DNA of 64,000 nt. It comes from Isoetes taiwanensis. Taxonomy: Eukaryota > Streptophyta > Lycopodiopsida > Isoetales > Isoetaceae. Positions 12,890 through 62,988 of this stretch are shown in pieces. The stretch is taken from positions 10,144,292 to 10,208,291 of the forward strand of contig JAJEKV010000049.1 of NCBI GenBank assembly GCA_021234155.1, read 5' to 3'. Positions within the stretch are counted from its first letter, which is position 1. Each line of letters begins with the position of its first letter. The position numbers and the translations under genes are program-made. Under the pieces are notes generated by a model. The model worked only from the letters and a program-made list of their open reading frames with translations, made no database searches and had not been told where the DNA came from.

Positions 12890-13330
12890 GTGGTTTGGAG
12901 TTCTTAAATTGGAGTTGTGAATTTATATTATTTGTAGTATATAATTGTGATTTAGAGTTTGTGAATTTAGATTGTAGTTTATATATTTGGATTTGTTGTT
13001 TGTGGTTTATGATTTGTGGTTTGGGGTTAATGGATTTGGTTTATGAGTTGGGTGTCTTAGTTTGTGGATTAGTGAATTTTATATTGTGTTCGTAGTTTTG
13101 TGGTTTGTGGTTGCATGTTTTGGTTTTGTGGATTGGGGAATTTTATATTGTGTTTTGTGGTTTGTGGTTTTGCATTTGTCTTTGGTTTGTGGTTTTGCAT
13201 TTGTGATGGTTAAATTGTGGTTAAGGATTTATACTTTTGTGCTTTGTGGATTATATTTTATAGATTGGACCTGAATTATAGTGAGTGGAATATAGATTGT
13301 GGATTGAGCCTTTAATAAAGTTTCTTTAGA
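12890..13330 (+). repeat. TTTGTGGTTT-rich intron, copy A
   Basis: Irregular repeats of TTTGTGG and GTGGTTT run for about 440 bp on the plus strand. They lie inside a probable intron: a good acceptor (TTTCATTACAG) ends it at about 13,381, just before the exon with the coiled coil. Copy B carries the same repeats at 44,780-45,230. Confidence 0.6.
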
Positions 13331-13381
13331 TTGTGGAATATACTTGTATCCCTGTAACTAATTCTTGAATTGTTTCATTAC

Positions 13382-20370: not shown

Positions 20371-22110
20371 ATGTACGCCCATCATGGTGCTTTGTGGTCA
20401 TCGGTAGGTCGTAGCATCTGCTTCACTCCTCCGTTAACTTCTTTGCCCGGAAGCATCAACTCCGGTTTGCTGGAACCACGTTCTTCTATATGAAGCTACC
20501 TCGGGGTTTTGATTCCTAAAATGGAATTGGTTGAATCTAGCTTGCATGATCATCGGCTTGTATCATGAACTACTATAGTCGTACCCCAAATTTAACATTA
20601 CGGTTGGAATATTACGAAGCATAGACTCCATATTTTTCTCCATGATCCTCGTTCCGCTAGCATTCGCGGCCTTCTCCTGGAGGTTGCATTTAGCTTTTGA
20701 ACATTCTGGAGTTGTTCTTGGAAGCGGTGTGAAATAGTAATTCTAAACTTCCGTTATGAGTACCAAAGCAAGCGGGTTTTATCTTCAGCGGGACCCCAAT
20801 CGGTAGTGGCTAGTACCTTTTCGAAAAACACTTCAAGAAAATCCACTGGACTGGTCATCGTTGTGTAACTTGGAACATCTTCTTGATGTCTTGAGGGCTT
20901 CTTTACCAATGTACCCTCCAACATGAAGTTCACGGCAAAGTGGTATCAAAATGGTACAAAAAAGCCTCAACAAGATAGCTTGCCCAGTTGATTGCAAACC
21001 ACGTTTATTCAAAGGGCCTCTAACAAGATGACCTTGCAAAAGCAATAATAATGACCTCTAGTGCAATTTACAGATTCCTTTTTGAAAAATTAAATTCTGG
21101 CTTTTTAGAGGTTTTTATTGTGAAAATTGCTTAAAATACTAGGCAGAAGTTTAATATAAGCATTCTTTGATGACAAACACAAAATACAAAGTGCGCTAAA
21201 AAAATATTACACAATAGAACAAGATACAAGAAAAGAAGAGTATATAGAAAAGAAGACTATATAATTTTCAACTTAATTAAACAACACTTTACAAAAATGC
21301 GAGTATCTTGTCTAATATGATAGAAACTTCAAAGATCCAGAGCAACCTCTTTACAAATAAGAGGTTCTTCATCATCTTATTCAACATTTGTAATGGTACC
21401 AGTAATGGCAAAAATAGGTTCTTGCTCCACTAATTCCTCCTATTTCCTCATCTCATCAAGAGGAATCAAGTTAGTGAAACATGCATGTTGATCTGTATTC
21501 CCTGTCAGGCAGTTGAAACTCGGAGCTTGTTGGCTTGGCACTATTATCAACACCATTAGCACCAAGTCTTGGTTCTTATGCTCTGCAAAGAGAAGTAATT
21601 TTTGATCTAATAATAACCAATGAGTCCTAATCAATATCAAATGGCAACACAGTTCTTCAAGCCACAGCCAAACAGTTCTTGTACTATTTCCTGAGTAAGC
21701 CACATTTCCTTAAGCCACTGCCGCATGCAGTAGTACTAGAACTATCCACAGTCAGCCACAGCAAATAAATGCAATCCCCTAATTGGGAGAATATTCAATG
21801 AAAATATTAATTAAACATTAAGAGTTCGTAAGAATTGACAAAAATTGTGACAAATCCTTAGCTTTACAGGAACTGTTGGATGCTGAAAAAACATTTCTAA
21901 TGTCCATTCTTGTTGTTGTAGTTGAGAATGCTCCATCTAGGATCTAACTGCAGTAACCAATGTGGACATCTCCCAAAACGTTAACAAATCTAGCATCTTC
22001 ACCATCACCTATGATAATTATCTTCAATCTGTGCACAAGTTAATAAGACTAAAATTTAGCAATTTTTATAAAGGCATGGGAACAGAAGAGCATGGGCCAG
22101 AGGCTTTAGA
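20371..22110. other. Unassigned spacer after the duplication breakpoint
   Basis: No gene recognised. The minus strand of 20,400-21,050 has protein-like pieces in several frames (for example a stretch with TSPVDFLE), which might be a decayed retroelement coding region, but no diagnostic motif supports a family. From 21,050 to 22,110 it is AT-rich without visible structure. Confidence 0.3.
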
Positions 22111-42690: not shown

Positions 42691-43402
42691 AATCCATAAG
42701 GATCCATTAACGTTTGCCCATGACATATGATGTATGGAAATCACAGAGAGCTTATACTTAATGAAAATATTACGAGCATATGCAATAGAAGAGCTAATGT
42801 GCTATATGAAAAATCTTAGTTTTAATGTGAGCATGTGCACACCATGAGCATGGCTAAAAAAAACATTTGTGATGCCCCGAACAGCTTTAATGCTATGAAC
42901 ATCATTAGCAACTTACAAAAATGCTCAATATGCAAGGTTTTTTATTTTTCATTTCAGAATCTATCAACATTAACGTGCAGAGGTGAAAGAACTTTATCAA
43001 AACCTATAATTGCTGTAAAAAGTAATCAAACGTGCTTTTGACTAGTTTATTCTTGTTATTTATCAGCGTGGGAGAAGAATGTTATCTATGAACCGCATAC
43101 TTGAAGCGTCGATTAGGATTATGTAAAATAAAAGATCTGGAACCCAATGCTAAGTGCCATGGTGTTCCTCTTGGAAACAGTTTTTGTAAAGTATCCATTA
43201 TAAATTGCAATTACGATGATGAGACTCTTCCGCAAAGACATCCTAGTGGCGACATAAATGAGTCTGAGTGTACAAATTTTCTGATAAAACAGAGAAATGT
43301 GTATGAAACTAATTTGGGACTAGGATGATGGTGGAAACAAGTTCAAAGTGGATCAAAACTTCGCTAGTGAACCGCACGTGTCCTAATAGGGCTTAAAGTC
43401 AC
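42691..43402. other. Unassigned stretch next to SNF2 fragment, copy B
   Basis: Contains the 75-codon frame at 43,101-43,328, identical to 11,187-11,414, with the Cys-containing stretch AKCHGVPLGNSFCKV. Identity between copies over about 280 bp suggests an exon or other preserved block, but no family is recognised. Confidence 0.3.
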
Positions 43403-43434
43403 GGGTGGATTCATGGTATGGTGTCTCAATTTTG
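43403..43434 (+). repeat. Left terminal inverted repeat
   Basis: Opens GGGTGGATTCATGG and ends CAATTTTG. The same sequence stands at 11,493-11,524 in copy A. Flank on the left ends AAAGTCAC (B) or AAAGTCACGT (A). Confidence 0.6.
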
Positions 43435-44239
43435 CTCATTTTGCACCACAAAAATAGTCCAAAACATAGTTCAAGATTGTGGTTTGTACACACAAAAATT
43501 CAAATCATTTAGCATTTATGATAGTGCAAAAATAAAATTCCTCTCTTTGGCATGATATCTTTCTCGAGAATAGGACTTTTGAATTTGCCACACAAGCCAA
43601 ATGCCACGAGACCAAAATAACGTGGACCGCCAAAAATAACCAAAAACACCAAAAGACCTAAATAGAGATCAAGAAGAATAGCCGATCTTGTGGATCGTAG
43701 CTTGGGATCATAGCCAAACAGGATCTTGTGGATCATAGCCACCAAACGTAGATTGGCGGATCATAGCTTGCCAAATCATGGGAAAAGCTTTTGGGAAAAG
43801 CTTTGCTATATGCAAAGGCCGATTTTGTTTCCATTGATTTTTGACCTTGTGAAAAGACCTAAATAGAGATTATGAAGCACAAACTGTGAGATCTTGTGGA
43901 TCATAGCTTGTGGATCATAGCATAAAGATTGTTTGATCATAGCTAGAGCTTGTGGCAAAGCTTTTGTTGTATGTAGTGCCAATTTTGATTGATTTTTGAC
44001 CTTGTGGAGTTGGTTCAATCCTTGGTCTCTTAAATTTCATGGTTGTAGAAATGGAAAAAATGTCTTGAATGATAGTGGATTATCATACAGGATTTGTTAA
44101 AACATGAGGAAAAGTTTGTGGATCCATTAGAGATGCTAAGTATTGGGGACCAAAGGTGGAGAATAAACAATCCTATAGATTGAGGGCTCGAAAAAGAAAA
44201 GAAAGAGGCTTTTCTCGAAAGCATTTATAGGGCAATCTA

Positions 44240-46957
44240 TGAGGAAAGGAGTCATGTTCAAAATGGGCAGTGTTAGTCAAGTTATGGTCGTAGTATGGTT
44301 TTTGCATGATGTTAAAGGTAAGGATATAGATTGGTTGAGTTTTTATAAGCATGCTTCAAAAAAAGAGGTCTTCAATGCTAGAAGAAGATAATATACCCAT
44401 CCAAGAAGATAGTGGGACTAGAAAAGCACCTCAAACCTATACAAGATTCAGCATCAATCGAACCACGATTGGCTTCATCATATTCTAAAACCGTGGAGTC
44501 TAAGAGACGTAAATATGGTAATACAAGTTGTAGTTTTATTTTGTTTAATTTGCATTTTGTCAAATGAGCTTACGCAACACAATGTGGGTGGTTTCAAAGA
44601 AAGTTGGAGATGCAAAAAGAGATTTTTACCTTTGGACATTCCGATAGTAAGTACTTTTTGATAAACATTGTAGAGTCTTAATAATCATTGGTTTGTTCAT
44701 AGCCTAACCTTTCGGTTATTGTGGTCATAGTTTTGTGATAGTTTTTGTCGCCAGCTTAAATTGTAGTTCTTTAGTAGAATTGTGGTTTGGAGTTCTTAAA
44801 TTGGAGTTGTGAATTTATATTATTTGTAGTATATAATTGTGATTTAGAGTTTGTGAATTTAGATTGTAGTTTATATATTTGGATTTGTTGTTTGTGGTTT
44901 ATGATTTGTGGTTTGGGGTTAATGGATTTGGTTTATGAGTTGGGTGTCTTAGTTTGTGGATTGAGTGAATTTTATATTGTGTTCTGTAGTTTGTGGTTTG
45001 TGGTTGCATGTTTTGGTTTGTGGATTGGGGAATTTTATATTGTGTTTTGTGGTTTGTGGTTTTGCATTTGTCTTTGGTTTGTGGTTTTGCATTTGTGATG
45101 GTTAAATTGTGGTTAAGGATTTATACTTTTGTGCTTTGTGGATTATATTTTATAGATTGGACCCGAATTATAGTGAGTGGAATATAGATTGTGGATTGAG
45201 CCTTTAATAAAGTTTCTTTAGATTGTGGAATATACTTGTATCCCCTCGTAACTAATTTACTTGAATTGTTTCATTCTGATTCCTTACTGCGATGACAAAA
45301 TGGAAGGAGTCCACCTAATTGAAGGTGAAAGAGGTTGATTGTAGGCTACAAATGTCATATAACAAATGGAAAGAGTTGAAGAAAACCTTCAAATCATTGA
45401 GGGAGAAGAAGGAGCATTATATGCAAGAAATTGTAGACATCAAATGCTTGATGCAAGGAATGACAAAGGAAGCAACCGGGGTGTGCAAATTGGTAGATAT
45501 GAAGGAAGCCGAGGTAGTTAAAGTTGTGGCATCATTGGTTGTTGTAGAGGAAGATCTTGATGCTATTGAGAAGAGGAGGCAAGGGACAATGATGAGATTG
45601 CAAAACTCGGGCTCGCGGTGTCTTGAAAGGCTTATTGAAGGTCGCAATGTCCTTGAGAACGGATTAAACTAGATCCTTATCTACCCGAGTCTATAGAAAC
45701 AAATTTCCTATCAGACTCACCTGAACGTGTATGTCCCTATTGTAGAAGATTCTTGGAATATGATGGGAAGCCACCGCCTTTTTGTTACCTGAGAGTGTAA
45801 CCATCTTTACCATATTCAATGTTTGGCCTCATTATTAAGGTATGAGCAAAAGTAAATTTTGATCTTAACAATAGTTATATTTTGATCATTAAGCTCTTTA
45901 AATTGATGTGTATAATTTCTTGTTTTCAGTTATAGGGATAAGTGTTGTAGCCCGGTTGTAACCAGATCATATCCGCCACTTGGATTGTTTACATTTGGCG
46001 TGAAGAAAGTTGTACACTCATATGGTATGTATAAGTGGTTAAGCAATCAACTTCTTAACATCATTTAATGTTGATGGTTTTGTTGGTTGTCCTATTAGAT
46101 GTCCATATGAATCCCACATATGCAAGCACAAGTAGAGATAAGGGATATCTATTCTCACGTATAGAAGAGCAAAAGATCCAAGTGGAGAATGCAACACAAC
46201 CCGAAATTGAGAAAGAAGAGCACACCGGACAATCGTAAAGTGAGAAACAAGGTAATGTAAAAGTTAATAGTTTGTATTAGAATAACTTATGTTATTTTTC
46301 ATTCTTCTTGTATCTTCCTCGCATGCAAAGCTTCAAATTGCGGATCAAATCTAAATGAAGAGTCAAGTCAGCGCCAGGCTTCAAATTGCGATCAAATCTA
46401 AATGAAGAGTCAAGTGCAAAGATATATTTGATGCTTCCAAATTTACGCCAAGTGCGTGATGTCTCCAAAAGCTACAATGAACCTTCTCTATTTGGACCTC
46501 CTAGCCCTTCTAGCTTTACCAAGCAGGGAAGTTTCCACCAAGATCCTAAAACCCACTTTCTAGCTTCAACAAGGAGGATAAGCTCAATAAACCCTCTAGC
46601 TCTACCAAGCAAGCTGAGTCCACCGCATCTGAAAACCGCTTAGCTTTCGACAATGAGGAGAAGTTCGTTGCATTAAAAAAACCACTTTTTGTAGTAGAAG
46701 TCAAAGATTTCATATCTGGTTGGTTTAAGATACTAATTTTATTATTCCTTTGATAGTTCTAATATTATTCATACTGAAGCTATAATTTCTTTAGGTATAG
46801 ATACAAGTAGCAAATTGGAAATCGAAACCGAAAATGTCGAAGAGATATCTACTAGAAAAAACAAAGGTATTCTTCCTTCACTTTTGTTCCATTACAGTTA
46901 GTAAATTAGTGTACTAATTCTCTAAATATATAGCAATTCTCTTGGCTCAAGAAATAC
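44240..46957 (+). CDS. Element plus-strand gene, N-terminal part: coiled coil and RING-like motif
   Basis: A possible early exon lies near 44,380-44,512 (MLEEDNIPIQEDSG). After the repeat-rich intron, the exon at 45,319-45,672 encodes a Lys/Glu-rich coiled coil of about 115 residues (KWKELKKTFKSLREKKEHY, VVVEEDLDAIEKRRQG). The next segment (about 45,675-45,838) holds CPYCRRFLEYDGKP and ECNHLYHIQC, the spacing of the first half of a RING-type zinc finger. A clean intron follows (GTATGAG at 45,839, TTTTCAG ending near 45,930), then exons with FTFGVKKVVHSYG, a second intron (GTATGT at about 46,025, CTATTAG near 46,098), and Ser/Pro-rich exons to the LINE at 46,972. The gene resumes beyond the LINE at 53,792. 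A role in ubiquitin or SUMO chemistry can be inferred from the zinc motif plus the downstream protease, but is unproven. Confidence 0.5.
44780..45240 (+). repeat. TTTGTGGTTT-rich intron of the plus-strand gene
   Basis: About 450 bp of irregular TTTGTGG/GTGGTTT repeats between a likely donor (ATATGGTAATAC at about 44,513) and an acceptor near 45,285, where copy A reads TTTCATTACAG. Low-complexity open frames in it (44,787-45,187) are rejected as genes. Confidence 0.6.
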
Positions 46958-47833
46958 AATTTGATGATGACGAAGATCTCCTGCCGTAATGAAGAGCGGC
47001 TAGGGTTAGGGCGGCCGCCATGGCCGCCTCCGTTATTTGCAGAGCAGGGTATGTCTTCTGGTTTTGCGTCCCGTGGCCTGGTAGATACAGTCACGGTGGG
47101 GCTCTTGCTTCCATTCTGTGTAAAAGAATGGAGTTTCATAGACAGGTTTCTCTGGAGGATTCGATCAGAAGTATCTGAAGGTGTTAGCAAGAAGAACTTG
47201 GAGGAAGACGATGTTGGCTACAAAACATCTGATTTGGAAGGATATAGTATGAGGACATCTCCGTGTCGAAATGGAGAAATGATAGGCGCTTGATGAGGCT
47301 AAGAAAAAAAAAAAAAAAAGAAGGCAAATGGGAAATCATTGTGGGGAAGATTCTCCTTGATCATTCAAATGCCGACCAAGAAGGCTTGAAGGATGTAAAG
47401 GCGATCCGGAAAACGAGACGTCCCCGCAGATGAGCCGCCGCTATACATAGTGTGGTGGAAAACATCCACAATTTATCCAGATCATCTTCATTACGCCTTC
47501 CAAGTTTTCAACCCCCACTCTTCGAGAAAGTTGATCTGTGCATGATATTCTTGAGGTGGTCATTGTGTCGATGTTTTATCGTGGAGGAAAAAATCTTTCT
47601 CGCCACCGCCGCTTTGGGGACAAATCATGGATATGTGTTGTTTGAGTGGTGTGGCTATACACTCCCATCGTTCTTTCTAATGCCCTTCTTATTTTGATTG
47701 TGGTGCTATTCTTGTGGTCGAATGCAGCAGCTCTTTTGATCAGGTTAGTTCTACATCTCTTCCACAACATAATAGTGAAAGGTTACGAAATAGTTGGGTG
47801 GGAAGTTTATGAAACAGTTGGGTCCTGTAATAT

Positions 47834-48283
47834 GGTTTGGATAGGCTTTAATTGTGCCTGCATTTTTGGTCTGCACTGGAATGGTGGGAACACGGCTCCT
47901 GTTTTGCAATCTACTGGTAGTCTGTGTATTCTATTGAATCTCTATGTTAAGGAGTCAGCCCTTAATCATGTTGGGCCGGCATGTAATGTGAGAAGCATCA
48001 TGAACTGCTATCTTAGTATCAGGATATTAATATATCTTCTCTGGTTTTGGCAAGTTTTGGTTTGGATAGGCATTAATTGTGCCTGCATTTTTGGTCTGCA
48101 CTGGAATGGTGGGAACACGGCTCCTGTTTTGCAATCTACTGGTAGTCTGTGTATTCTATTGAATCTCTATGTTAAGGAGTCAGCCCTTAATCATGTTGGG
48201 CCGGCATGTAATGTGAGAAGCATCATGAACTGCTATCTTAGTATCAGGATATTAATATATCTTCTCTGGTTTTGGCAAGTTTC
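47834..48283 (+). repeat. Two 225-bp tandem units in the LINE 5' region
   Basis: Units begin with GGTTTGGATAGGC at 47,834 and 48,059 and are nearly identical to the end of the second at about 48,283. Copy A holds the same pair (15,932-16,375). Tandem 5' units recall promoter monomers of some L1 elements in animals. A 252-codon open frame spanning them (47,646-48,404) is a consequence of the repeat and shows no known domain. Confidence 0.75.
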
Positions 48284-49164
48284 AATGAACACTAGAAAAT
48301 CTATTGTCACAATATTCTACATCATCCTTTTAAGCTGCAAAATCAAGTTAAGAAACCGCTCTAAAGGGATCACGCGATTTTTTGGTTCGAATCGTAATGT
48401 CTAGCTTTGGGCCATGGTCAATGGGGCTGACATATGGGAATTCCCACCATTGGCAACAGCTTCCGGTAATGGGCCTTGTTTGGCAGTTGTTGGGGAGGGG
48501 AATGCTTCCAAAGATAAATTGGCAATGGTGGGTGATTATATGGGATATCATAAGGGGGGCTACGCACCTTGGTAAATTTCAATCATGTTGGGTAGAATCC
48601 AATGAACCCCTTTTACTCACCCATCATTATGGTGGGAAATTAGACACTCATCATTGGGTTAGCATGCTGGGGCTAAAGGGAACAACACCCTGGATGGCTT
48701 TAGTGTCACACACAACAAGACAAGAACACAACAAGACAAGCATGAGTCCACATTGCTTTACAATGACAAAGGTGATTATTGGACCGTTAAATGGGGAGGG
48801 GGCTTTTGCTACATGGGCCTATCTTTTGCATCACATGGTCTAACCATTTTCAAAAGTGACACTCATGGCTTACATATTTTATATATGGTTGCAATAAAAC
48901 ACCTAAGGAGTGCTAGGGGTGGTGGGCCACTTATTTTAAGTATGGTTGCAATAAAACACCTAGGGAGTGCTAGGGATGGGGGGCCACTTATATGGTTATG
49001 CAGGTGGGGGGGTACTGCACAGTTTATATTTAAGATGACATTGGTGTATCTTTTGTGGTTGACCTTTGTTGAGACGGGGGATCGACGTAGAAAAGGGAAA
49101 GGGAATGTTCAGATGGTTACAAAGACAACTGCCAGCTTGCCGATAGGTTATTATACTATATACT

Positions 49165-52100
49165 ATGAAAATTGTCTCCTGGAACCTCCGAGGTATTAAA
49201 GGCGTCCTGAAACGTGGTAGAGTGCTTGCAGCCATACGCTCTATGATGGCAGATGTTATTCTCTTACAAGAGCATAGACTTCCTGACTTCGAAGCAAGTT
49301 CTATAGGCAAATGGGTAGGTGGCAACTATTCCTCCTTTAGTTGTGCAGCCAGGGAAACTAAAGGTGGCACCTGTATCCTCTGGAGAGGCCTTGTTCAGAA
49401 GTCCTACTATGCTTCTGGGGATGGTCGATGGCAGGTGGTGACCTTTGAATCTAATGAGTGCCAATGGGGGGTCATCAATGTGTATGCATCAAATAAGCCT
49501 GCAGAAAGGGCCGCTATGTGGAAAGAAATTGAAAGCTGGATAGGTCATCAAGGGGATGTCACCGAAAACTGGATTTTAGGGGGAGATCTGAACATGACCG
49601 ATGTTTGGGACCAAAAAATTGGGTTGCATAGAAATCTATCAGGAGATGAGGATACTTCTTGGAACTCATTGCTTGATAGTGTGGGATTTAACTTGATTCC
49701 GCCTTCCAATGCTACCTTCTCATGGTCGAATAAGCAGAAGGGCCAAGACAGAGTATATTGCCTATTAGACAGATTTTATATGGCCAATAAAACGGCATGC
49801 TTCATGGACAAGTGTTATGTGGAGGGGGAGCTTGCCTTCTCCCACTCTGATCATGTTCCCCAAAGCTTATTTCTAGAAAGTATGCCTACTACTGGAAAGC
49901 GTGGAAATATCCCTTTCAAATTTAATACTTCGTGGCTAGGAAAGGAGGCATTTTGCAAGCCTTTCAGGGTATTTATATCCTCTCTCTCTAATGATCTTAA
50001 TCTTCTAAGCATGAAAGCCTGGGTTGAGAAGCTCAGCCTAATGAAGGCCTGGGTTAAAGTGTGGGGGAAGAGCAGAGCCATGGAGTTCAAAAGGGAAAAG
50101 ACTGATATATATAATCAGTTGAGAATAGTTAAGCAGGACTTATTATCTGATCCACACAACATTGCTAAACAGAACATTGAGGCTGATTTGGAGGGGAAAG
50201 CAAAGGCAATTGAGGAGGAGGAGGCTAGAGGGGCGGCAGTTCGCTCTAAAACTAAATGGTATGCCGAACTTGACCATGAGAACTCCAAGTGCTTTTTTAG
50301 AATGGCTGGTGCAAGGTTAGCTGATAACAGTATCTCATCGATTAAGGATGGCAATTCAAATGTATTGGAGGAACCACAGGAGATCAGATCATTTATTAGA
50401 GAAAGCTTTGAGAATCAATTTAAGGAAGATCCTTTACCTTCCTCTTACCATGCTCAGATGGCACTTTGGTTGTCTAAAGTGGATTGGGGGGGGAAGGTTA
50501 CTCGAGAAGAAAATCAACTTTTATTACATAACATAGAGGGAGATGAGATCTACAAAACCTTATGCTCCCTTGCAGCAGGAAAATCTCCTGGGCCAGATGG
50601 TTTCCCTCCAGAATTCTTTGTTGAATTTTGGGATGTGCTTGGACCGGACTTCATCAGAGCTGTATGTGGAGCATGGTTGTCATGTTCTCTACACCCGTCA
50701 CTAGCAGCAGGGTTTATCACTCTTGTTCCTAAGGTTCCAAGACCTCAAAGCCTCGGGGAATGGAGGCCTATTGCACTCACCAATGTCATCTATAAAGTAA
50801 TCATGAAGGTTATTGCTAACCGCTTGAAACCAATTTTGAACAGGGTCATTGGGCATGAGCAATCAGCTTTCTTGCCAGGCAGATACATATTGGATAACTA
50901 CCTTGCAGCCAGGGAAGGTCTGCATTGGTGCCAGGCCTCCAAACAAAATTGTGTAATGATCAAGATGGACTTTAGAAAGGCATATGATTCTCTTAGATGG
51001 GAAGGGTTGCGCCATCATGTACCATATGGGATTTGAGTCCCACTTTATTCAGTTGGCTTTGGGGATGAATAACTTAGCATCTGCGTCGGTCCTGGTTAAT
51101 GGACAACCATCTGGCCTGCACTATTTAAACTCAAGAAGGGGATTAGACAGGGCTGCCCCCTCGCTCCTTACTTGTTCCTCATCATGGCTAACCTTTTGAC
51201 AAGAATGGTTCAGTTAAAGATGTTGGAGGGGATGGGAAGGGCTTACTTTTCCCGGGTACGAAAAGTTAACAATTATGCAATATGCGTGATGACACCTTCA
51301 TGTTCCTCGATATGATGACAACAGTTTCCACTCATTTCGAGAGATTCGGCGTCCTTTGAGGTTATATCCGAATCGGCCTTAATGCGAATAAGTGTGCGAT
51401 TCTACGGGCTTCGAGATAGTCCCATTGATCCTCTGCGTCGGGGTCCAGGTTTTCCGGTTGTGGCAGTGGGAATCGCTTAAGCTTCCGGTCTTCCCCGGTG
51501 CTTTCGAGACAACCTCAAAGGCCTCCTCGGGCCCCCATATTGGATAAACTCGTAGAAAGAAGGTAAGTCTATGGTCCACAAGGACCTTGGCAACATCCGG
51601 CGTGTGGCGGTTGCTAATGCGGTGCTAGTCTGCCTCTCATATCTATTACTCATCAGCGATGATTGCCCAGAAAGGGGTTTACAATCAAATGCAAACTATC
51701 ATCAGGAAATTCATCTGGGGTGGCATGGCTAAGGTGGCCTGGGAGGAGCTGTGTCGGGATAAAAGGGATGGGGGATTGGGCTGCAAAGACCCATTCACTC
51801 AGGCACAGGCCCTGGCAGCTAAATTTGTTTGGAGAGTACTACAAGGTGAGTCATCTACTTTATCACCTGCTTTGAAATTTATATCCTATTGGTTGAAGCA
51901 AGGTAAGCTCTTGGGAAAGCCAGCTCTCCCCAGAGATGAGTTGGGAGCTTTCTATTTTAGCTTCAAGGTAGCCCCTGGTACGTCTCCTGTGATGAGAAAG
52001 ATTCTCCAAGCGTGGCTGGACGTGCAACATCTTTTCACCCCTATGGATCCTCCTAGGGAAGCAGGTGGTTTCAGCTTATTTTGGAATACTGGGGTATGGG

Positions 52101-52744
52101 GGAGGGAGGGCCTTCCTCTGGCCCTCTCTCACCCCCGCATCTTCATTAAGTGGAAGAGTTGTGGAATCACTAGGTTGCAGCATTTGTGGATGAATGGGAG
52201 ATGGGTCTGTTGGACTACATTCAAGAGTAAAATCCAGAACCCAGGCGAAGGTGACCGTAAGGTGCTACGAGATATCTTAGGCAAGGTCACCAACCTATCT
52301 GGAACAGTGGGACCTTGTGAGGAATGGCGTTTTGATGGACATGCACAATATAATGTGGCTAGAATCTATCGAGGACTATGTGAAGATACTCCTTTGATAG
52401 CCGAGGCAAGGCTTGGGGTGAGCAATGGAGTTGCCAAAGCTGCTTTAGCCAACTCCTGGAAGTCTCTTTGTTCAAGAAAGATACAATTCTTCAGGTGGAC
52501 AACTTTGCAAGGGGGGCTTAGTACAAAGGAAAGTTTATTTAATAAGGGTATTCTGGACAACGATAGGTGTCCACTTGGTTGCCATATCACTGAATCTATT
52601 GAACACCTCTTCTTCTGCCCCCAGATTGCAGAGTTCTGGCACTGGGTTTGCCCCATTATTGGGCTGATGGTACACCATCTGAGGTGGCCAGATTTATTGA
52701 TCATTGATAGGTGCGACGCTCGAAGCCTCTTTAGTGAATATTAG
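49165..52744 (+). CDS. LINE ORF2: AP endonuclease and reverse transcriptase, broken near 51,020-51,660
   Basis: The first long frame (49,165-51,036, 623 codons) opens MKIVSWNLRGIKG and carries the endonuclease motifs QEH, GGDLNMTD and SHSDHVP in the first 230 residues, then the reverse transcriptase: KSPGPDGFPPEFF, LVPKVPRPQ, WRPIALTNVIYK, HEQSAFLPGRYILDN and MDFRKAYDSLRW. The core DDT box (DDTFMFLD, replacing the usual ADD) lies at about 51,285-51,310 in another frame. A final frame (51,659-52,744, 361 codons) holds the thumb and the terminal Cys/His motif (CPLGCHITESIEHLFFCPQI). Several frame changes sit between 51,020 and 51,660, a stretch unusually rich in CG where related proteins suggest CTG or CAG, so some may be sequence error. 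The protein nicks target DNA and copies the LINE RNA. Confidence 0.85.
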
Positions 52745-53791
52745 CGCCATGGGTCATCCGGAAGCACCGATGTGATGTGGCACTAGGTGGCCAAGGGATC
52801 TCCATAATGAAGCTAAAAGAACTCTTTCAACTTCGGAAGGGCAATCGATGGCTATCACATCACAGGGAGGCATGGTATTAACTACAACAAGGATCTTGAC
52901 AGACTTGGATCCTTACAGGGCTTCTACTTTTATTTTAAGTGTCATTGGGCTGATAACGAAGTAAGTGATGACAATGGCTCAGGTATTCTATCTATTCAGA
53001 ATTGAGAATGTTATGTGGACCCAGTAGTGGAACGGAGTTGCTTTCCTCTATAGTACCTACGTTATGGTGAAGATGGGCGACTCCCGATAGTACCCTTAAA
53101 GTAGGGAAGACGAGAAGATGCTCTCTGTAGTACACGTGCTGTGACTCCCGCTACATCGTCTTAAGCTCAGGGTTGCCCTTAAGGCCATATCTGCATAGGC
53201 ATGATTTAGAAGGTGAGGCGAATCATAAGCTTTCTATATTAATTTTGTAGGCGATTACGTTTTGTGACTTGAACTGTTGCATAGAAACTTTGGCGAACCA
53301 TGCCAACGTTATATTAATTCACATACAACTTACAGGATTAAGGAAACCTATTATGTTTAGCAAAATTTGAGTAGTAGTTGATTTTTTGAGTATTCTACTA
53401 TGGTCCACTAGAGCTAGCAAACAATTACTTGATCTACAATGGAACACTTAGATCTATGATCCTAAACACTAGATCCATGGAACTGGAGGCGAAACTCTAG
53501 ATCCGAGCTTAAGAATGCATGGCTAATTTAAGAAAGGCGGGCGGACGAAATGGTAAAACTTTGGCGAAAGAATATAATTTATTTTCAATAGTAACCTATT
53601 CAGCTTTAGTATCTCATTTTTGAAAATATTCAAAATATAGCCATTTGGCTATAAATAGCCCCTTAAGGGCAACCCTGCTTAAGCTGTAATGCTTTCTATT
53701 TACTCCTGAGAGGGTCTCATTGTACATACTATTTTCTATTAATATATATATCTAATCTTACCTCCAAAAAAAAAAAAAATTTGATGATGAC

Positions 53792-54688
53792 AATGTAATG
53801 TCAAATAGCATTTTACCTCAACCACCATCCACAAAACAACCAAGTAAGATACCTGCATTGATTGAGTTAAAAGGTTTCATTTTTTTCCTAGCTTCTTTTT
53901 TGTCTCGTTCTTCCTCAATATTTGACCGTTGTATCTTGTTGTTTTTACTAGTACCTGACAATTCTGATGGAGAGTTCAAAGAGAAGAAAATGGACCTTAT
54001 TATACCTGGAAGTGATTGTGCATCATCTCCAGCCATCAAGAGAATCAGGTTGTCTAAAAAACTATTGATCTTTGATTTCAATGGTGTGCTTGGAAAATTC
54101 TACGAGCAAACTAGTAGGAATGTCATACCAAGGGTGGATCCACCACTAGAACTTTTGTTGCTTTCCAAAACAAAGATGTTGGTATTCAGGAAAGATTTAT
54201 TCGAGTTTCTTGGCTGGTGTATAAACCAGTTTGACATTGCAATATGGGCTGATTTTGATGGTACCATCTTGAACCTGATAACTAAAAAGTTCTTTCCAGA
54301 AGATATAAGGAGTGCATTAATGGTCTAAAGGAACTCACTAGAGCATGCACTAAAGTTAATAAAATCAATATTAACTTCAAGATTCTAGAGAAAGTGTACA
54401 ATCACAAACCTCTTGCAGGATCATATAAAGTGGTCAATACACTCTTGGTTGATGACCATATGTACAAAGGTTACAAAAATGCCCGACACACTATAGTCAC
54501 TCCTATCACCTTCAATCCTGAAGCAAGGCGATCGAGACTATTTTACCAAAGTTTTGAAGCCATGGTTGTTGGGCCTTTCTTCTGCTGATAGTGTTGCTAC
54601 ATATGTACAAGATCATCCAATTAAAAATTGGTTGGATGATATCTCTGAAAAATTTATTGTGGCTATGAAGAAGAAGAACAAGATTTGA
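53792..54688 (+). CDS. Element plus-strand gene, middle part: FCP1-type HAD domain
   Basis: Directly after the LINE's right target-site copy the frame reads NVMSNSILPQPPSTKQP, continuing the sense of the exon before the LINE. Then comes a HAD fold of the FCP1/NLI-interacting type: LLIFDFNGVLGKFYE (first motif, second Asp replaced by Asn as in many plant relatives), FRKDLFEFLGWC, FDIAIWADFDG, and after a frame change near 54,298, YKVVNTLLVDDHMYKGY (the DD motif) and a tail with LKPWLLGLSSADSVATYV ending at 54,688. FCP1-type enzymes dephosphorylate the C-terminal tail of RNA polymerase II or other proteins; with Asn in the first motif this copy may be inactive. About two frame changes are present. 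Confidence 0.6.
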
Positions 54689-54819
54689 TTATTACTAGAA
54701 TCTATAAACTATTTTAGATCTAATTTGTTACAAAACATTGTGTAAGATATCTGAAATCTACTTTGAAATCTAAATGTGTTAAAATGCATTTGTTTCCTTG
54801 GATTGTATTATTTACCTTA

Positions 54820-55750
54820 ATAACAGATTGAGGAAGAGGAGCAGATCCCTAGTAGAATTGCTCGACAACTTTCTACCCATGGTGTATTGCGCCGAGTCCA
54901 ACCCAATCACTATAACGAAAGTAATGTAACGTAGACATATTTGGACAATGAGACACGATGGCTTAATAATACGATCATTGATCTGTTCATGAGGTAAATT
55001 GTTGTATACCTAGGATTGTACTTTCAGTTGTGATCTCTTTATAGCATGGTGTATTTTGCTTAGAAATGGTGTATTTTGCTTAGAAATGAGTGGCTACATT
55101 TGGATGAGGAACGAAGAAAACAAGTATACATATGTCATGCACTAACATATGGATATATAAAAATGAAAAAAGAACTTGTTATATCCAAATTGTTGCTGGG
55201 ATTGGATATGGACCATTGTGCATGTTTGATTATTCCTATGTGCCATAGGAATCATTGGACTGCAGCTGTGATATTGGGTCTTTTAGCCCCTAGCAATTAC
55301 ACTTATCCAGTTATATTGCACTTTGATAGCCTTGGTTGTCAAAGGTATGATTGGACACCTATAAGCAGGTAAGTGGTCAATTTGTGAATTCAAATGTAAA
55401 CTTATTTTAATTATGTAGGAATTGACTTTCCTCTCTTATAACAGGCTAATAGAAGCTTTGGCCAAGCTTTCCCCCGAGCGACCCAATTCAAAGAGAATTT
55501 GCGGTGGTGCCATCTTAGCCCTCATCCTCTCCAATCAAATGGTTATTCATGTGGATTGTATATTTGTATGTTTGCTAAAATCATCATGGAGGAAGATGCT
55601 GCCATACAGAATTGGTTACACTATTCAAACCGATGTTTTACACCACAGGTTGTGTCTAGTATAAGGGATTACTTGATTATTTGTATATGTAATCAAGTTT
55701 TTAGAGATTATGGACATGACTTGCTTATTCAGATTTTGAATATATTGTAA
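54820..55750 (+). CDS. Element plus-strand gene, C-terminal part: Ulp1-type (C48) protease
   Basis: An exon from about 54,825 (EEEEQIPSRIARQL) leads to ETRWLNNTIIDLFMR, the WLND-type start of a Ulp1 domain, ending at a donor near 54,993. The exon at about 55,076-55,368 has the catalytic His in HRNHWTAAVI and Asp in LHFDSLGCQ. After an intron (GTAAGT at 55,369; acceptor choice TTATAACAG or the nearby CTAATAG sets the frame), QSNGYSCGLYICMF supplies Gln and the nucleophilic Cys at about 55,530-55,570. The frame ends at 55,750. With the later acceptor all motifs stay in one frame, so this domain looks complete. Ulp1 enzymes cut SUMO or similar modifiers. Ulp1-like domains are repeatedly carried by plant DNA transposons. 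Confidence 0.7.
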
Positions 55751-55759
55751 ACACAGAAG

Positions 55760-56050
55760 TTTGAATTTATGTAGTAACAAGCCACAAAGAGAATTGGAGT
55801 TTTAGTTTGTGGAGTTTAGAGTTTGGAAGTTTGAGTTTATGTAGTAACAACCCACATAGAGAATTGGAGTTTTAGTTTGTGGAGTTTGTGTTTGTGTAGT
55901 AACAAGTCACAAAAGAGAGAATTTGAGTTTGAGTTTGTGGAGTTTGAGTTTGTGGAGTTTGAGTTTATGTAGTAACAAGCCACAAAGAGAAATGGAGTTT
56001 TGAGAAATGGAGTTTTGAGTTTGTGGTTTGTTTGTTTTTCTTTTTGACGT
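55760..56050 (+). repeat. GAGTTTGTGGAGTTT repeats after the protease gene
   Basis: Four or five variable units containing TATGTAGTAACAAG, CCACAAAGAGAAT and GAGTTTGTGGAGTTT follow the stop codon of the protease frame. They share the TTTGTGG core with the intron repeats of the same element. Confidence 0.7.
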
Positions 56051-56117
56051 TTTGAGTTGTATAGTATAGTTAGTCTGGAGTTTCTTAAGGACACTTTTTT
56101 AAGGACCTCTCTAAGGA

Positions 56118-56345
56118 CTTAGTCTAATGCTGCAAAGTCCCTCAACGGCGATGGGGGCGAACTTAGTCTAATGCTGCAAAGTCCCTCAACGGCGATGGGG
56201 GAAGCGCCCCCACCTCACTCATCCTCACCGTTCGAGGGGAAGCGCCCCCACCTCACCTCACTCATCCTGCTCGAGGGGAAGCGCCCCACCTCACTCATCA
56301 CTCATCGACCTCACTCTCTCGAGGGGGAAGCGCCCCCATCTCACT
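56118..56345. repeat. 44-bp tandem pair and GC-rich GAAGCGCCCCC repeats
   Basis: CTTAGTCTAATGCTGCAAAG starts at 56,118 and 56,162 (44-bp period). Directly after, GGGGAAGCGCCCC followed by ACCTCACTC recurs four times to 56,345. No coding signal. Confidence 0.75.
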
Positions 56346-56578
56346 ACTACCTCACTCACTCACTTTCTTTTTTCTTTTTAGTTGTTGTTTGGGATTTTAT
56401 GCATGGTACCATTTTGGATGTAGATTATACATACCTTTATACATACCTGTAAGCGCCTCCATGTTCCATGTCTCGTCTCGGATGTATTCGGATGTATTCA
56501 CCATCATTGTCCTGTAAATTCAATTGTCAACACATGTATCATTCACAACACCCCCACAAGCATATCATTCACAACAGC

Positions 56579-56858
56579 ATATCATTCACAACAACCCTCT
56601 AAGACCTCTAAGACACTATACTATACACCCTCGAGGTTACACCCTCTAGGAGGCCACCCTAGAGGTTAGATCATGTGAGCCATCATAGTGGGATATCCAC
56701 TCCGACTTTTATTGGGACATATCATTCACAACAACCCTCTAAGACCTCTAAGACACTATACTATACACCCTCGAGGTTACACCCTCTAGGAGGCCACCCT
56801 AGAGGTTAGATCATGTGAGCCATCATAGTGGGATATCCACTCCGACTTTTATTGGGAC
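56579..56858. repeat. 140-bp perfect-looking tandem duplication
   Basis: ATATCATTCACAACAACCC begins at 56,579 and again at 56,719; the 140-bp unit (through CTTTTATTGGGAC) appears identical. It lies in the region between the two convergent genes of the element. Confidence 0.85.
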
Positions 56859-57490
56859 CTATCTCGGCCTCTGCCTTCCGTAAATCTCCGTGCGTTTCCG
56901 TTTAAAGAGAACCCTCGAATTATATCCGATTCGAGGTCGTTAGATCTCGCACCAATGTGGCTCGACTAATTGTAGGGCATCCCCACGCTTTTTCACAGTC
57001 CATCCCCTTGGATGTCTCCAAAGGTTCGTCAACAAGGCCCAATCACATGATACTTAATCACTTCTAGGTGCATCTTATATACACATGCTACTTTTTTTTC
57101 TTTGGCATGTGGGATGTTGGTGTGGGATATTAGGTTTAGGGTTTTTGTATTGGACTACTCTACCATGTAAGACATAGATCCAAAATTATCAAAATTCAAA
57201 CTTAACATCCTTGGATTTGAACCTAACACCTATTCATTCAATATCTATCAAATGAATAAACCAACACACCTTTTAAACATATGTTAGTTATGAATGAAAC
57301 ATTAATAACATAAAAGTCTAAACAATAACATTATCATACAAGCACAGAAAACACAAGTAGAAGAATACAAGATATATCAACTCATCATCATCATCATTAT
57401 CTATTAAAACATCAATACATGAAAATCATCATCACGACAACCCAGATGGCTTTGATCTGTTCATCATCATCATCTGCTCACAACAACAAG
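56859..57490. other. Spacer between the 3' ends of the convergent genes
   Basis: No gene or strong repeat recognised. Probably holds the 3' flank of the minus-strand gene. Confidence 0.4.
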
Positions 57491-57493
57491 TGT

Positions 57494-60400
57494 TCACTCA
57501 CTATCACCATCACCATCAGCATCACCATCACCATCACCATCACCATCACCATCACCATCACCATCACCATCACCATCATCATCATCATCATCTGACAACA
57601 CAGGTGGTAAGTTGGCTCTGATCTGTTCTTCATCCTTAGGATCTAGAAGGTGAAATACAGGATGTCCTTTGATAGCATAATTTCCTTTCATTAGTGGAAT
57701 TCTAACACCACATACTTGTGTAGAGTAAACCTTTGCAGCTCCTTCTTGAGAACATAATTCATAACCTCTCTTTGAACTTGGAATTTTTTTGAAGTAAGTT
57801 CCTTCTAATATACTTTCACCTTTTAAGAACCACGTTCCATTATCTTTGAAGTCTTTTTCCACTACATACTTCTCCCTTGTACATGCAAGCAACCAAAAGT
57901 CATCCCCTTCAGGGTTGTTTTTTGGTGCTGCCACTGCAAAGTAATCTCCACATCTGACCCGGTCAGCAATATTAACACCTCAATATAAGGGCCTTTGTGA
58001 CTTTCTAACCTCAATTGCATCACAAGTAGATGAAGAAGCGGGTTCAATTTCCACCGGTTCCCACTTATTCACATATGCCGTATTCTTCGCATCTATCCCA
58101 ATGTTCATCTAAACAAAAACTACAAAAGCATGAGAATCTTGAACACATGAATTGAGTTGTTGATCCCAAAGTTTGAATCTTGGCATACACTATGAATTTT
58201 TTGAGTATCCTTCACCGTATGTGCTCCCCATTCCTTACGCCTATCGACTTCTCCTGCTTTAACTTCCCAAAAAAATCTTTTAATATCTTTCTTTTTGTTT
58301 TGGTTCCTCTTTAGAAGAAACTGTACCGAGAAAATAACTCCTTGGCGACCTCCACAATATCATGTGCATTCTCTATCTTAGTATCGGGATATAGGAGTTG
58401 GACCATTCTCGATCCATCTCTTTAATTCAGCAGCCTTGCCATCATGTTCTCCCTTTCCGTGGTTTGAACCAAAGTGTTTCAAAACTTTCTTAGGCTCTCC
58501 ACGTTTATCCACACCTCCATGTTCATAGTCGATGTACTCCCATTTCACAACCTCCTCACTCTCTAATTCCTTGGGGCAGATTTCAAACTTCTTTATCCCA
58601 CACTCACTACAAGTACCGTCAAGACAATCCTTACTATAGAATTCATCAATCTCACCCTTCTGGCAAACAATACATTTCCAAAGATCACTGATGTCTGTAA
58701 AAATCTTGCACTCACAAGTACATGACTTTGAGTGCTTCTTCCTGAATTTAGTTAAACAACAAAGTTTAAAATGAAACGCACTTATTTGCTGCAAACGCAC
58801 TTCAAAAGGAATCTTTGAAAGATTCCCTAAAATTCCCTTAAAAAATGCCCTTTTCTTGGTATATTTGTGACAAGTGTGACAATTTGAATATTTTAGGCAC
58901 CATTTTTGGAGGGGAATTTGAACTCAGCTTCCATTCAAAATTGTTTGGTACCATTTTTTGACCCCCTAGTTTGGTTTGAGAAATAGTAATATTTTTAAGG
59001 ACAAAACAAAATAGACATTGAAAAAAAAAAAGGAAAAAGGATAAAGTACAAGCTTAAGAGTGCCCAAAAATGTATTTAGTTCAAAGTTTATAAATTCACT
59101 ACAAAATTATGAACAAAATTGCAAAAAATGCAACACATTTTGATATTGCCTCAATGAAGCAAATATTGTCACCTTAAAGTATGCCTCACACGCGAGGTGA
59201 AGTCGAAGATGCTTGCGCTTTGCTTTATACACTTGCTCTTATTTGCTCCTCCAAACTTGCTATAGACTTATTGGATAATCAAGATGGCCAAAGATGTATC
59301 CAATCTGGACTTTTTAAACTTTGTAATTTATTTGTTCTCTCTAGTCTTTAGTTTCTTCCAAATAAATTTCAAGATGGTATAAATTTATACCTTAATAGAT
59401 AGCAATATGTGGACATAGTATGCTAGAGAGTTAAGAGAACGGTATAAATTTATACACCCGAAGAAGACTTGAGCTGCATAGATTTATACAACAAAAAGAA
59501 CTGAAAAAGATAAATTTATACAAAACAAAAAGGACTCGAGCGGTATAAATTTATACCGCAAGAGGACCCAAGCGGTATAAATTTATACCGCAAGAGGACC
59601 CAAGCGGTATAAATTTATACCGCAAGAGTTTTCTCGGTATAAATTTATACCAAAGATATATATATATGTATATTATATAAATATATAATATATATATAAC
59701 ATATATATTTACATATATATATCAAAAAAAAGAGAAGTCTTATGGTATAAATCTATACCCATGAGACTTCTATGGGTATAAATTTATAACGTTTTTTTTT
59801 TTATATATACAAATATGTGAACGTATATATATTGAATATATATATATATATATATTAACATGTATAAGATGTATATAGATATATATATACATAAAATATG
59901 TAGTCCAGGAGTATAAGTTTATATTGTGCAAAATCTTGTGGGGGTCTTTCTTGCTCCCAAAGGTTTTTTTGCAACTTAATACTTGTTGAAATAACACACT
60001 CAAGGGATAATTTTATGCGCTTTTCTTAGTTTTTAGTTCAAAAAAGTTCTAAAATAGTTCTAAATTCTCGACCTTTGTAATGCAAATGTTAGAGCATAAA
60101 TTAGTCGAATCCGTTGTTATTTTTACTTTTTTTTTCTCTACACACATGCTAACTTCACTTTAAAAGCTCAAAAAATTCTAAAGGCAAAGGACCCCAAAAT
60201 GTTATGGAGACACATGTGTTCAACGAGAAGGAAACTAAATGGTTTGTCCATAGGGGTCGCGAGGAGTAGCAACCCCTCAAAAGTTTACCTATTTCTTTGC
60301 AAAAAACAGGACAAAAAAAGCAAGATAGACAAATACTTCTCTGTGGAGAAATGTGCGAAGGCATTGAACTAATTGGAATCATCAATACAGATGATGGAAT

Positions 60401-62690
60401 TGTCTTTGAAGACTCTCAACATTGACAAGGAGCTTGACTATCTTCTCAACATCACTATATTGTGGATTGGTATTGTGCAAGCCCAAAGACATGATGAATA
60501 CATCTCTCCGAGAACAACAAAGAAGGCCATATAATGTAATCACAGAGCTTCACTACTTCAACTTCTTTTCCTCATGATAAATTTATACTCATTCCGATCG
60601 TGGGTTGGAACTTCAACTAACCTCGCATGATTTCGTGGATGTATTATCATTTGTAATACCATATGATGCAAAACAATAATTTTTCATTCAAGCAGTTTGT
60701 TCAACTGTCTCCCAATGTCTTTTAAGGTCAATTAGGATGTTTAGCCAAAATGGTTGTGAAATAACAAATTTTTTGTCTTCTATAACAGCCAATATAAACG
60801 TTCTAAGGGATAAGATACAAAAGCGTCTAATTTTTTCATATGAGTTTGCCCCATAATAAATCTTTGGCTTTCGTAGTGGTCCTTTTTCCCTCTAAAATGA
60901 GATATTTTTCTTTGTTGTTCTTCTCCTTAATGTTAAGTCTTCCTAAAATGTCTGTTTTCATGAGCAGTTTTATAAATCTTTAGACACAAGATAGTAAAAG
61001 AGTCCTTTTTAGGGGTATTTTAGAATTTTGTAAATTTTTAGAAGGAATCTTTCAAACGCACTTCTTAAATAAGTGCGTTTCATTTTAAACCTTGTTAAAC
61101 CATCCAGCAGCATTTGTAACCTGACATGATGTATGCAACAACAAGTGTTATACTCTGCTAGCTTCACTACAAACCACGGCTTCAAATTTTGAAAAGCTGA
61201 AGCTCCAACTTTGACATTTGGATGTTTTGCTTTGAAAGCTTTATAGAGTTGCATCTAAGAACAAAACAATAGTTGATTATCAATCTCAAACCCCAAACCG
61301 CAAACATGAACCTCAAACTATAATAATGAAATTCCAAACCACAAAATAAAACAATATCCATTAGAAACCTTAAAATCACAATCTAACCTAAAACCACAAT
61401 CCATCAAACCATAATCTAGACCCACAATATAATCCACAACCACAATCACAAGAAAATTGAAACCAAAAACCACATTCCAATCCAAAACCACAATCTAATC
61501 AAAACCATAATCTAGAACCACAATGTAATCTACAACCACAACCAAGTTTAAACCACAATGCAACGAATCACAATATGACTTGAACCACAGTTTAATCTAA
61601 CCACAATGTAATCCAAAACCACAATCTATTCCAACCATAATGCAATCTATCTTGGATCTAAAACTATAATATACTATCTACAATACACAATCTATAATCT
61701 GTTATAGAGGATCTAGAGAAAACTGTGATCAAATCAAGCTTGAAAGAGTAGATAGATAATAGAGTAGTAACTAACTTGGCTTTGCTCTAAGTAATGTGTA
61801 GCATGCTCTTCTCTGATATTTCTTTCAAGTCTCCTAGATTTCACATCCTTTGTGTTTGGAGAGACCCTAGTATTAGAAATCCAAAAATCCCCATGCAAAG
61901 AGCAATGACAGAATCAGAAATGGAATCACATCTTCTTCCCCTTCTATAGTACACCCATTTTCCTGAATTGCAATTTATCTCAAATTTGTCTCTCTTTGCA
62001 GCAGTCAAATTTCTTGGATGAACATCAAGAACTTTTCCCATTTTTCTGTAGCTGCTTTTCTGTGCATTGCCTATTGCCATTGCTAAGCAGCCATACAATC
62101 TAGACTAGTTGATTGCTTCATGATATGGATTGAATCTCTGATATTATCTATTATGGTTGTTTTTGCTTCCACATTCTTCAAGAGATCCCCAACTATCTCT
62201 TCCATAGCTTTATGTTCTAGTACATCAATCAATATTTCTCGTTTAATCTGGAGATTCATTGTTTTTGTTTGCCTCAAGAATGAATTGACGGTGTTTAACA
62301 CTACTCTACTTTTTTTTGCACCACTTTTATCCAACCCATCTTGACCTCCAATCTTCACCAATGCCTCATTAGCTTCTTTTTCTCTTTTTCTCTATCTTTG
62401 TTTCTTCAGACGTTCTTGCTCTGTATCTCTCTTTTTTCTCTTCTTGATATTCTTTATAGTATTGTCCACAATACTAGGATCATGACCGATTGATATATCA
62501 TCTGCATTCTCAAGATTGACACTAGAAATAGTTGCATGTTCTAAACCACAATCTAAAACTTCCCCAGATTGAATTTCTTTCAACAATGATCTCAAACTCA
62601 CTCTAACAAATGGATCTTCATTCTGGATGTTCTGGATTTCTTCATCTGCCATATCTAAGAATACATCTTTCTCCTCCATTTTTCAGAAAT
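57494..62690 (-). CDS. Element minus-strand gene: transposase-like protein lacking its core, split by a hAT-like element
   Basis: Reading leftwards: N-terminal frame from 62,679 (MEEKDVFLDMADEEI) with a basic coiled stretch; one in-frame stop near 62,392, then the frame runs to 62,083; after a frame change, HPRNLTAAKRDKFEI and SPNTKDVKSRRLERN to about 61,780; a repeat-rich intron to an acceptor (TTCTTAG) at about 61,258; LYKAFKAKHPNVKVGASAF and NTCCCIHHVRLQML; the hAT-like element (58,760-61,094); CTCECKIF, WKCIVCQKGE, CLDGTCSECG; HFGSNHGKGEHDG (about 58,450-58,490); and a C-terminal domain with YFAVAAPKNNPEGDDFWLL ending in an Asp-Gly tail at 57,494. The CCxIHH and HGKGxxDG pair matches, from memory, a transposase-like family common in cnidarians and fishes. 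Roughly 150 residues expected between the Cys cluster and HGKG, including the acidic catalytic residues, are absent. Confidence 0.5.
57497..57592. repeat. CACCAT microsatellite coding for Asp-Gly
   Basis: About 14 CACCAT-type units followed by CAT units. On the minus strand they encode the alternating Asp-Gly and poly-Asp tail of the transposase-like gene. Confidence 0.9.
58760..61094. mobile_element. hAT-like non-autonomous DNA transposon
   Basis: Ends are inverted: CAAAGTTTAAAATGAAACGC at 58,760 and, on the other strand, CAAGGTTTAAAATGAAACGC at 61,094, continuing into CACTTATT. Flanks are 8-bp near duplicates, TTAAACAA (58,752-58,759) and TTAAACCA (61,095-61,102). Eight-base duplications and CAAAG/CAAGG ends are hAT features. 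The inside has no transposase. The element interrupts the minus-strand gene within codons for DGL/TKF, with one target copy being the original coding sequence. It carries a palindrome array in its middle. Confidence 0.75.
59376..59790. repeat. Palindromic motif array GGTATAAATTTATACC
   Basis: A perfect 16-bp palindrome occurs at 59,376, 59,542, 59,574, 59,606 and 59,636; near copies at 59,441, 59,744 and 59,775, with weaker ones near 59,475, 59,509 and 59,909. The copies at 59,542, 59,574 and 59,606 belong to 32-bp tandem units with the spacer GCAAGAGGACCCAAGC. The array sits inside the hAT-like element, next to TATATA runs (59,655-59,900). Confidence 0.9.
61270..61690 (-). repeat. AAACCACAA-rich intron of the minus-strand gene
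   Basis: On the minus strand this reads TTTGTGGTTT and TTGTGGTTTTGG again and again, the same motif as the plus-strand gene's intron. It sits just upstream of an acceptor TTCTTAG at about 61,258. Two further AAACCACAAAT copies lie at 62,880-62,911 near the right end. Confidence 0.7.
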
Positions 62691-62956
62691 GTGCTTCACA
62701 CTGTAGACTTACCAAAATAATACTGAGCAAAAGAATGAGGAACAAACTCCCTCTACGTTTCCACCGTTTGAGCATTTGAAAAAATTCCCTCCAGCATTAA
62801 TGAAGTGGTTGGTTATTATTAGAATTACTCATCGGTTACTGGAAAAGGCATCAACGTAATCAATGTTATACAAATTCTCAAACCACAAATGCATTTCTTA
62901 AACCACAAATACAAGCTATACTTTTAAGCTATTTGGGGGGGGGACATGGGGGACAC

Positions 62957-62988
62957 CAAAACTGATCCACTATAGCGTGAATCCACCC
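62957..62988 (-). repeat. Right terminal inverted repeat
   Basis: Read on the minus strand it opens GGGTGGATTCACGC and ends CAGTTTTG, matching the left end at 26 of 32 positions, with the first 11 identical. The right flank begins AAGATAAAA, which does not repeat the left flank. Confidence 0.6.

Follow-up and report, generated by a model that had tools for sequence, protein, structure and literature searches.

We examined a 64,000-nucleotide stretch of the Isoetes taiwanensis assembly GCA_021234155.1 (contig JAJEKV010000049.1, positions 10,144,292 to 10,208,291; hereafter the window), in which positions 43403-62988 hold two convergent genes enclosed by a pair of inverted repeats. The plus-strand gene, here called gene A, ends in a Ulp1-type protease domain and reads toward gene B, which lies on the minus strand; this convergent arrangement had been described in a first-pass annotation of the letters alone and is as stated there. 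Both genes are interrupted by nested insertions, one of them a long interspersed nuclear element (LINE). The parts of the putative element, and a second copy of its left half elsewhere in the window, are as follows.

43403..43434, plus strand: left terminal inverted repeat, found by repeat search; the same end occurs again at 11493 in the duplicated copy
44100..55750, plus strand: gene A, approximate span from open-frame pieces, split by the LINE
45319..45669, plus strand: coiled-coil-like segment of gene A, an open frame of 117 aa (top Pfam match at E 0.037, chance level)
45729..45960, plus strand: RING-like zinc finger of gene A, approximate, frame-broken in this copy and open in the duplicated copy
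46972..53779, plus strand: nested LINE in gene A, with endonuclease and reverse transcriptase (family matches; flanking repeats)
54029..54685, plus strand: segment of gene A with motifs that we take to be FCP1/HAD-like, without family, PDB or fold support
55064..55750, plus strand: Ulp1-type (C48) protease domain of gene A (Peptidase_C48; SENP2 in PDB; His, Asp, Gln and Cys in place)
57497..62679, minus strand: gene B, approximate span, in pieces running from 62679 to 57497 and split by the 2.3-kb element
58381..58755, minus strand: cysteine-rich block of gene B, continuing directly into GSNHGKGEHDG (open-frame reading)
58758..61093, no strand assigned: nested 2.3-kb inverted-repeat element in gene B, with 30-bp arms at 97 % identity
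62957..62988, minus strand: right terminal inverted repeat, 26/32 against the left end with the first 11 exact
11493..20372, plus strand: second copy of the element's left half, from self-comparison of the window, ending within the LINE

The inverted repeats sit just outside both gene starts, and our search returned them at the coordinates and with the match originally reported. Their 11-base tip, GGGTGGATTCA, occurs at three places in the window, namely both ends and 11493. The last of these is the left end inside a duplicated segment that the first-pass annotation overlooked: positions 1-20372 of the window (copy 1) are a second copy of 31961-52369 (copy 2), at least 20.4 kb long and 90.8 % identical. 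With the search confined to the roughly 1.5 and 1.3 kb that precede the gene starts (42604-44104 and 62677-64000, anchors picked after the genes had been seen), none of 2000 dinucleotide shuffles gave 11 exact bases together with 26/32, the top shuffle reaching 25/32; across the full 22 kb, 2 of 100 shuffles produced an equally good inverted repeat. The repeat is therefore beyond chance when anchored and marginal over the whole region, and a chance origin of the ends is unlikely, if not impossible. The real 22-kb region contains 15 inverted pairs at this standard (11 exact, 26/32), 13 of them inside the nested 2.3-kb element or at its edges; the two that join both arms are 43403/62957, the ends themselves, and 45054/61462, which falls in the motif arrays described below. 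A longer terminal repeat was considered and rejected: the alignment of the ends extends to the first TTGTGGTTT site at about 80 bp, yet at chance level past 32 bp, and we do not claim it because shuffles and random window pairs score equally beyond that point.

That the two genes and both ends form one unit is most strongly supported by a shared, oriented and mirror-placed motif. Among 8-mers taken in each gene's own sense, TTGTGGTT is the one best shared by both arms, occurring 11 times in the arm of gene A and 12 times in that of gene B, all in sense, and never antisense in either arm (the counts exclude 199 bp at 56201-56399, a stretch free of the motif). Outside the element it is absent from both strands of 35.5 kb, a count that excludes the duplicated left half at 11493-20372 with its 10 occurrences, and the nested insertions contain a single one, in the LINE. 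Across 400 block shuffles that kept local composition, the highest count for any 8-mer common to both arms was 5, compared with the 11 observed. The sites are distributed as follows.

43477..43484, plus strand: one TTGTGGTT site, 74 bp from the left end
44780..45114, plus strand: array of nine sites in an early intron of gene A, 1377-1704 bp from the left end
56021, plus strand: one site behind gene A
61337..61624, minus strand: array of nine sites in an intron of gene B, 1364-1644 bp from the right end
62544-62551, minus strand: one site in the first open frame of gene B, 437 bp from the right tip
62881..62908, minus strand: two sites, 80 and 100 bp from the right end

Each array is a tandem repeat, and the two together account for 18 of the 23 sites, the other five lying outside them. 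The intron holding the left array has a GTAAGT donor at about 44647 and an ACAG acceptor that is clear in copy 1 only; the right-array intron has a clear TTCTTAG acceptor, and its donor is not fixed. GC skew is also mirrored, at +0.40 for 44-45 kb and -0.33 for 61-62 kb. Because both halves share sense-oriented TTGTGGTT in mirror positions, the case for one element is firmer than it was from the ends alone.

The Ulp1-type protease assigned to gene A at first pass is well supported. Peptidase_C48 matched two unaltered single exon frames, one above the cut-off (E 1.1e-4) and one below it (E 0.0051), a frame read through with X in place of stops (E 1.2e-7) and the hand-joined exons (E 1.8e-12); the nearest solved relative in PDB is SENP2 (E 5.6e-5, hand-joined query). 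The four C48 catalytic residues (His, Asp, Gln, Cys) are kept in NHW, FDS and LQSNGYSCG of the unaltered frames and in the alignment to SENP2. The RING-like part fared less clearly. Its exon is open in the duplicated copy at 13779-13955, and that frame matches several RING families, the best being zf-C3H2C3 at E 2.2e-5, which is fair support, with all matches below curated cut-offs. A HAD domain, also proposed at first pass, was not recovered: the joined pieces matched 0 Pfam families, and PDB and NCBIfam returned nothing or other proteins at E 0.024 or worse, the longer queries being hand-joined across frame breaks. FDFNGVL and NTLLVDD are the motifs that we presume to be FCP1/HAD-like, without support from any library, and a fold model of the 93-aa segment had a mean predicted local distance difference test score (pLDDT) of 41, too low for a fold search.

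Gene B changes frame several times and has an in-frame stop at 62392-62394. Its order of TRVSPNTKDV, a CxC/CxxC cluster, GSNHGKGEHDG and CFCSFC is one that we take to mark a widespread, unnamed transposase-like family, which is how the gene had first been labeled. Family searches did not bear the label out: the pieces gave chance-level matches only (best E 0.037), and the read-through frames gave nothing at E up to 0.01; here and below, these frames cover the plus strand of 43403-46977, both strands of 53771-58757 and the minus strand of 61097-62988. A fold model of the C-terminal 130 aa had a pLDDT of 35.5 and was not used. In that family, an acidic catalytic region precedes HGKG, whereas the cysteine cluster abuts HGKG here; judged by this motif order, gene B of this copy seems to have lost its catalytic core, and for that reason the copy is probably not self-mobile. 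A pattern written for this family had two matches, both rejected, one in a frame of 21 codons and the other, by eye, unlike gene B in the sequence around it, and a variant of the pattern had 0 matches. Viral contigs yielded no relatives of gene B, the Ulp1 domain, the end pattern or a DUF7869 frame described below. The open literature that we searched held nothing linking HGKG with transposase and DDE, nothing on a transposon with 'FCP1 homology domain' and Ulp1, and no title on this gene pairing.

The two nested insertions are each bordered by short direct repeats, the LINE by the 12-bp TTTGATGATGAC at 46960-46971 and 53780-53791 and the 2.3-kb element by GTTAAAC at 58751-58757 and 61094-61100. 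Subtracting them leaves 10,423 bp, in agreement with the roughly 10.4 kb given at first pass. Within the 2.3-kb element there is an array of GGTATAAATTTATACC palindromes at 59531-59651. The interval between the 3' ends of the two genes (56117-56863) contains GGGGAAGCGCCCCCACCTCACTCATC-type units repeated in a short tandem array at 56185-56368, and two near-identical 140-bp repeats at 56578-56863.

Copy 1 runs through the left end and the front of gene A into the LINE, most of which it contains; because the duplicated segment stops there, copy 1 is silent on the right end and on the empty site. The two copies are separated by 1451 substitutions and 447 indel events, next to perfect runs of up to 888 bp, and their identity is uneven, with near-perfect stretches (as in a receptor kinase gene) and 500-bp bins down to 76 %. 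Differences cluster near CG/CHG sites (0.58 of clusters, versus 0.20 of identical columns in a sample of 4000), the fraction of columns near such sites being 0.53 for indels, 0.63 for substitutions and 0.20 for identical columns. A GC/GNC control was also raised, at 0.50 and 0.52 versus 0.32, about 1.5-fold. Per CG/CHG site, we counted 0.14 differences in the receptor kinase, 0.20 at 33500-36000 and 2.1 at 36001-43000; the element had 2.9 and the LINE 3.7. By this pattern, most of the differences look like uncorrected long-read errors at methylated sites; they could instead be true divergence of methylated DNA, in favor of which are the enrichment of substitutions as well as indels near CG/CHG (0.63 versus 0.20) and the raised control. 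The 20-kb duplication may itself be an assembly artefact. We had considered reading gene decay from the frameshifts and rejected this, as the copies differ in error-like clusters; the frame breaks in genes A and B are not usable as signs of decay, whichever cause is right.

The receptor kinase gene at 31645-33417 (Pkinase, E 2e-48; PAN_1, E 1.6e-5; a weak S-locus glycoprotein match) is open for 590 codons in copy 2, and copy 1, cut by the start of the window, retains a 181-codon piece at 738-1283. Between the two copies lies an open frame at 29065-29493 that matches DUF7869 (PF25273, E 7.4e-33). We presume this frame to be transposase-like from its DNCAGQNKN and GHTHEDVD motifs; the open literature searched contained no mention of DUF7869.

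We read 43403-62988 as one damaged copy of a large plant terminal-inverted-repeat DNA transposon, at a probability of roughly 0.7. The single mobile element proposed at first pass has gained the mirrored TTGTGGTT sites that are absent from the 35.5 kb outside, and its acknowledged gap, a target-site duplication, persists. Several observations count against the reading, and this gap is the first of them: inverted repeats are present at both ends, and no target-site duplication was found at or near either. The scan moved the left end by -8 to +5 and the right end by -8 to +8 bases, included the left flanks of both copies, and accepted exact repeats of at least 4 bp, one mismatch from 8 bp and two from 10 bp. 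Its sole match of 4 bp and longer was an off-set TAAA, and no 3-bp duplication occurred within 2 bases of the ends, the exact flanks being CAC or CGT versus AAG. There is no second copy with both ends in the window, the duplicated copy being a left half only, and the similarity of the ends past 32 bp was matched by 242 of 2000 shuffles and 105 of 2000 random window pairs. Gene B had no transposase family match in the searched frames, and the gene A read-through matched only Peptidase_C48 in Pfam (E up to 0.01), a library that was not checked for a VANC model. TTGTGGTT was chosen after inspecting the data, though the shuffle test covered all 8-mers, and a simple T/G-rich repeat that expanded in tandem in two introns could pass for a shared site. 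Finally, DNA binding in the manner of VANC, the anti-silencing protein of VANDAL transposons, rests on analogy.

If 43403-62988 is one transposon, an element of about 10.4 kb would have been hit later by the LINE and by the 2.3-kb element. Gene A, reading inward from the left end, would encode a protein with coiled-coil, RING-like and Ulp1-type protease parts, and gene B, reading inward from the right end, would be the remnant of a transposase-like partner whose catalytic core has seemingly been lost. We infer that the two genes and ends would have moved as a single unit. A protein encoded by the element might then bind the TTGTGGTT arrays, much as VANC proteins do in VANDAL elements; such binding could join the ends or keep the element unsilenced, and the Ulp1 domain could act on SUMO- or ubiquitin-like marks at the arrays. 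Our best guess is that TTGTGGTT would be bound either by the gene A protein or by the transposase of intact relatives.

Among the alternatives, the one that survives best accepts a single transposon and takes the arrays as binding sites of its own transposase and not as targets of an anti-silencing protein. CACTA elements offer a precedent, as their subterminal repeats are transposase binding sites, and the sites near both tips, together with the mirror symmetry, would suit synapsis. The position of 18 of the 23 sites in intron arrays, 1.4-1.7 kb inside and away from the tips, speaks against such a role, and we regard it as a plausible minority view. More doubtful is a form of the anti-silencing idea in which, in line with the undescribed transposon suggested at first pass, an undescribed non-MULE lineage of plant DNA transposon (one outside the Mutator-like elements) would have evolved a VANC-like system independently, with the RING-like/Ulp1 protein of gene A recognizing TTGTGGTT arrays in the introns of both genes and at both tips and stripping silencing or SUMO marks from the element.

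It is also conceivable, and in our judgment rather unlikely, that two unrelated neighbors were mistaken for one element: to the left a gene or element with Ulp1, to the right a distinct transposon remnant, and around both a chance inverted repeat. This would fit the lack of a target-site duplication, the 2 of 100 whole-region shuffles with an equal inverted repeat and the restriction of the duplicated copy to the left half; it sits poorly with repeats placed just outside both gene starts and with an oriented TTGTGGTT that occupies mirror positions and is missing from the surrounding 35.5 kb. Least probable is a Ulp1-carrying Mutator-like element (KI-MULE/VANDAL) with its transposase too broken for recognition, since the read-through frames gave no match to a MULE transposase domain at E up to 0.01, the motifs of gene B are unlike those of mudrA, and no duplication of 9-11 bp was seen, even though an opposite ULP domain, intronic arrays and missing or degenerate terminal repeats have all been described in that group (PMC2528002, PMC5735166, PMC10398659).

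The preferred reading, a single terminal-inverted-repeat transposon, still has its closest known counterpart in the KI-MULE/VANDAL elements, and by analogy the element would follow the same plan with other parts. In KI-MULEs (Kaonashi), known from Arabidopsis with similar elements in melon, rice and grapevine, the ULP domain lies opposite to the transposase gene, mudrA (PMC2528002, PMC13317346), and some Vandal elements have a VANC gene with a Ulp1 domain (PMC13317346). VANC21 binds a 9-bp motif, YAGTATTAY, that occurs mainly in non-coding parts and forms arrays of a single orientation; tandem repeats lie in introns of VANC and VANB as well as upstream of VANA (PMC5735166), and VANC causes loss of DNA methylation across the whole element (PMC5735166, PMC10398659). 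The Isoetes element has the corresponding traits, a Ulp1 gene on the plus strand opposite gene B on the minus strand and a short motif whose arrays in non-coding parts, among them introns, keep one orientation. It differs in its motif, TTGTGGTT, and in that nothing VANC-like was detected in gene A; unlike the KI-MULEs, which lack terminal inverted repeats, it has inverted repeats of 32 bp, no target-site duplication at its ends, and a Ulp1 gene with a RING-like segment and motifs that we take to be FCP1-like. The arrangement alone is not new, because KI-MULEs already have a ULP domain opposite their transposase, and we do not file the element as VANDAL/KI, given that the searched frames yielded no MULE transposase domain.

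CACTA elements start their ends with CACTA/G. Those of the Isoetes element start with GGGTGG (GGGTGGATTCA), and no Tnp2 match was obtained in the searched frames; the likeness is to Cactavine, a CACTA DNA transposon with a ULP1 region (PMC2528002). Ginger1 likewise carries Ulp1, but there it is fused to an integrase-like transposase, with 5' ends of TGTNR and a 4-bp duplication, in hosts that a table there lists as animals (PMC2836005).

Ulp1-type proteases are thus already present in several kinds of DNA transposon (MULE, CACTA and Ginger), and an element that lay outside these groups and had both a Ulp1 gene and mirrored motif arrays in both genes would be an independent case. We infer a role of TTGTGGTT binding in anti-silencing or synapsis from the VANDAL analogy; TTGTGGTT and gene A would then provide a concrete motif and protein for the part played by Ulp1 in such transposons, whether in synapsis, SUMO removal or anti-silencing.

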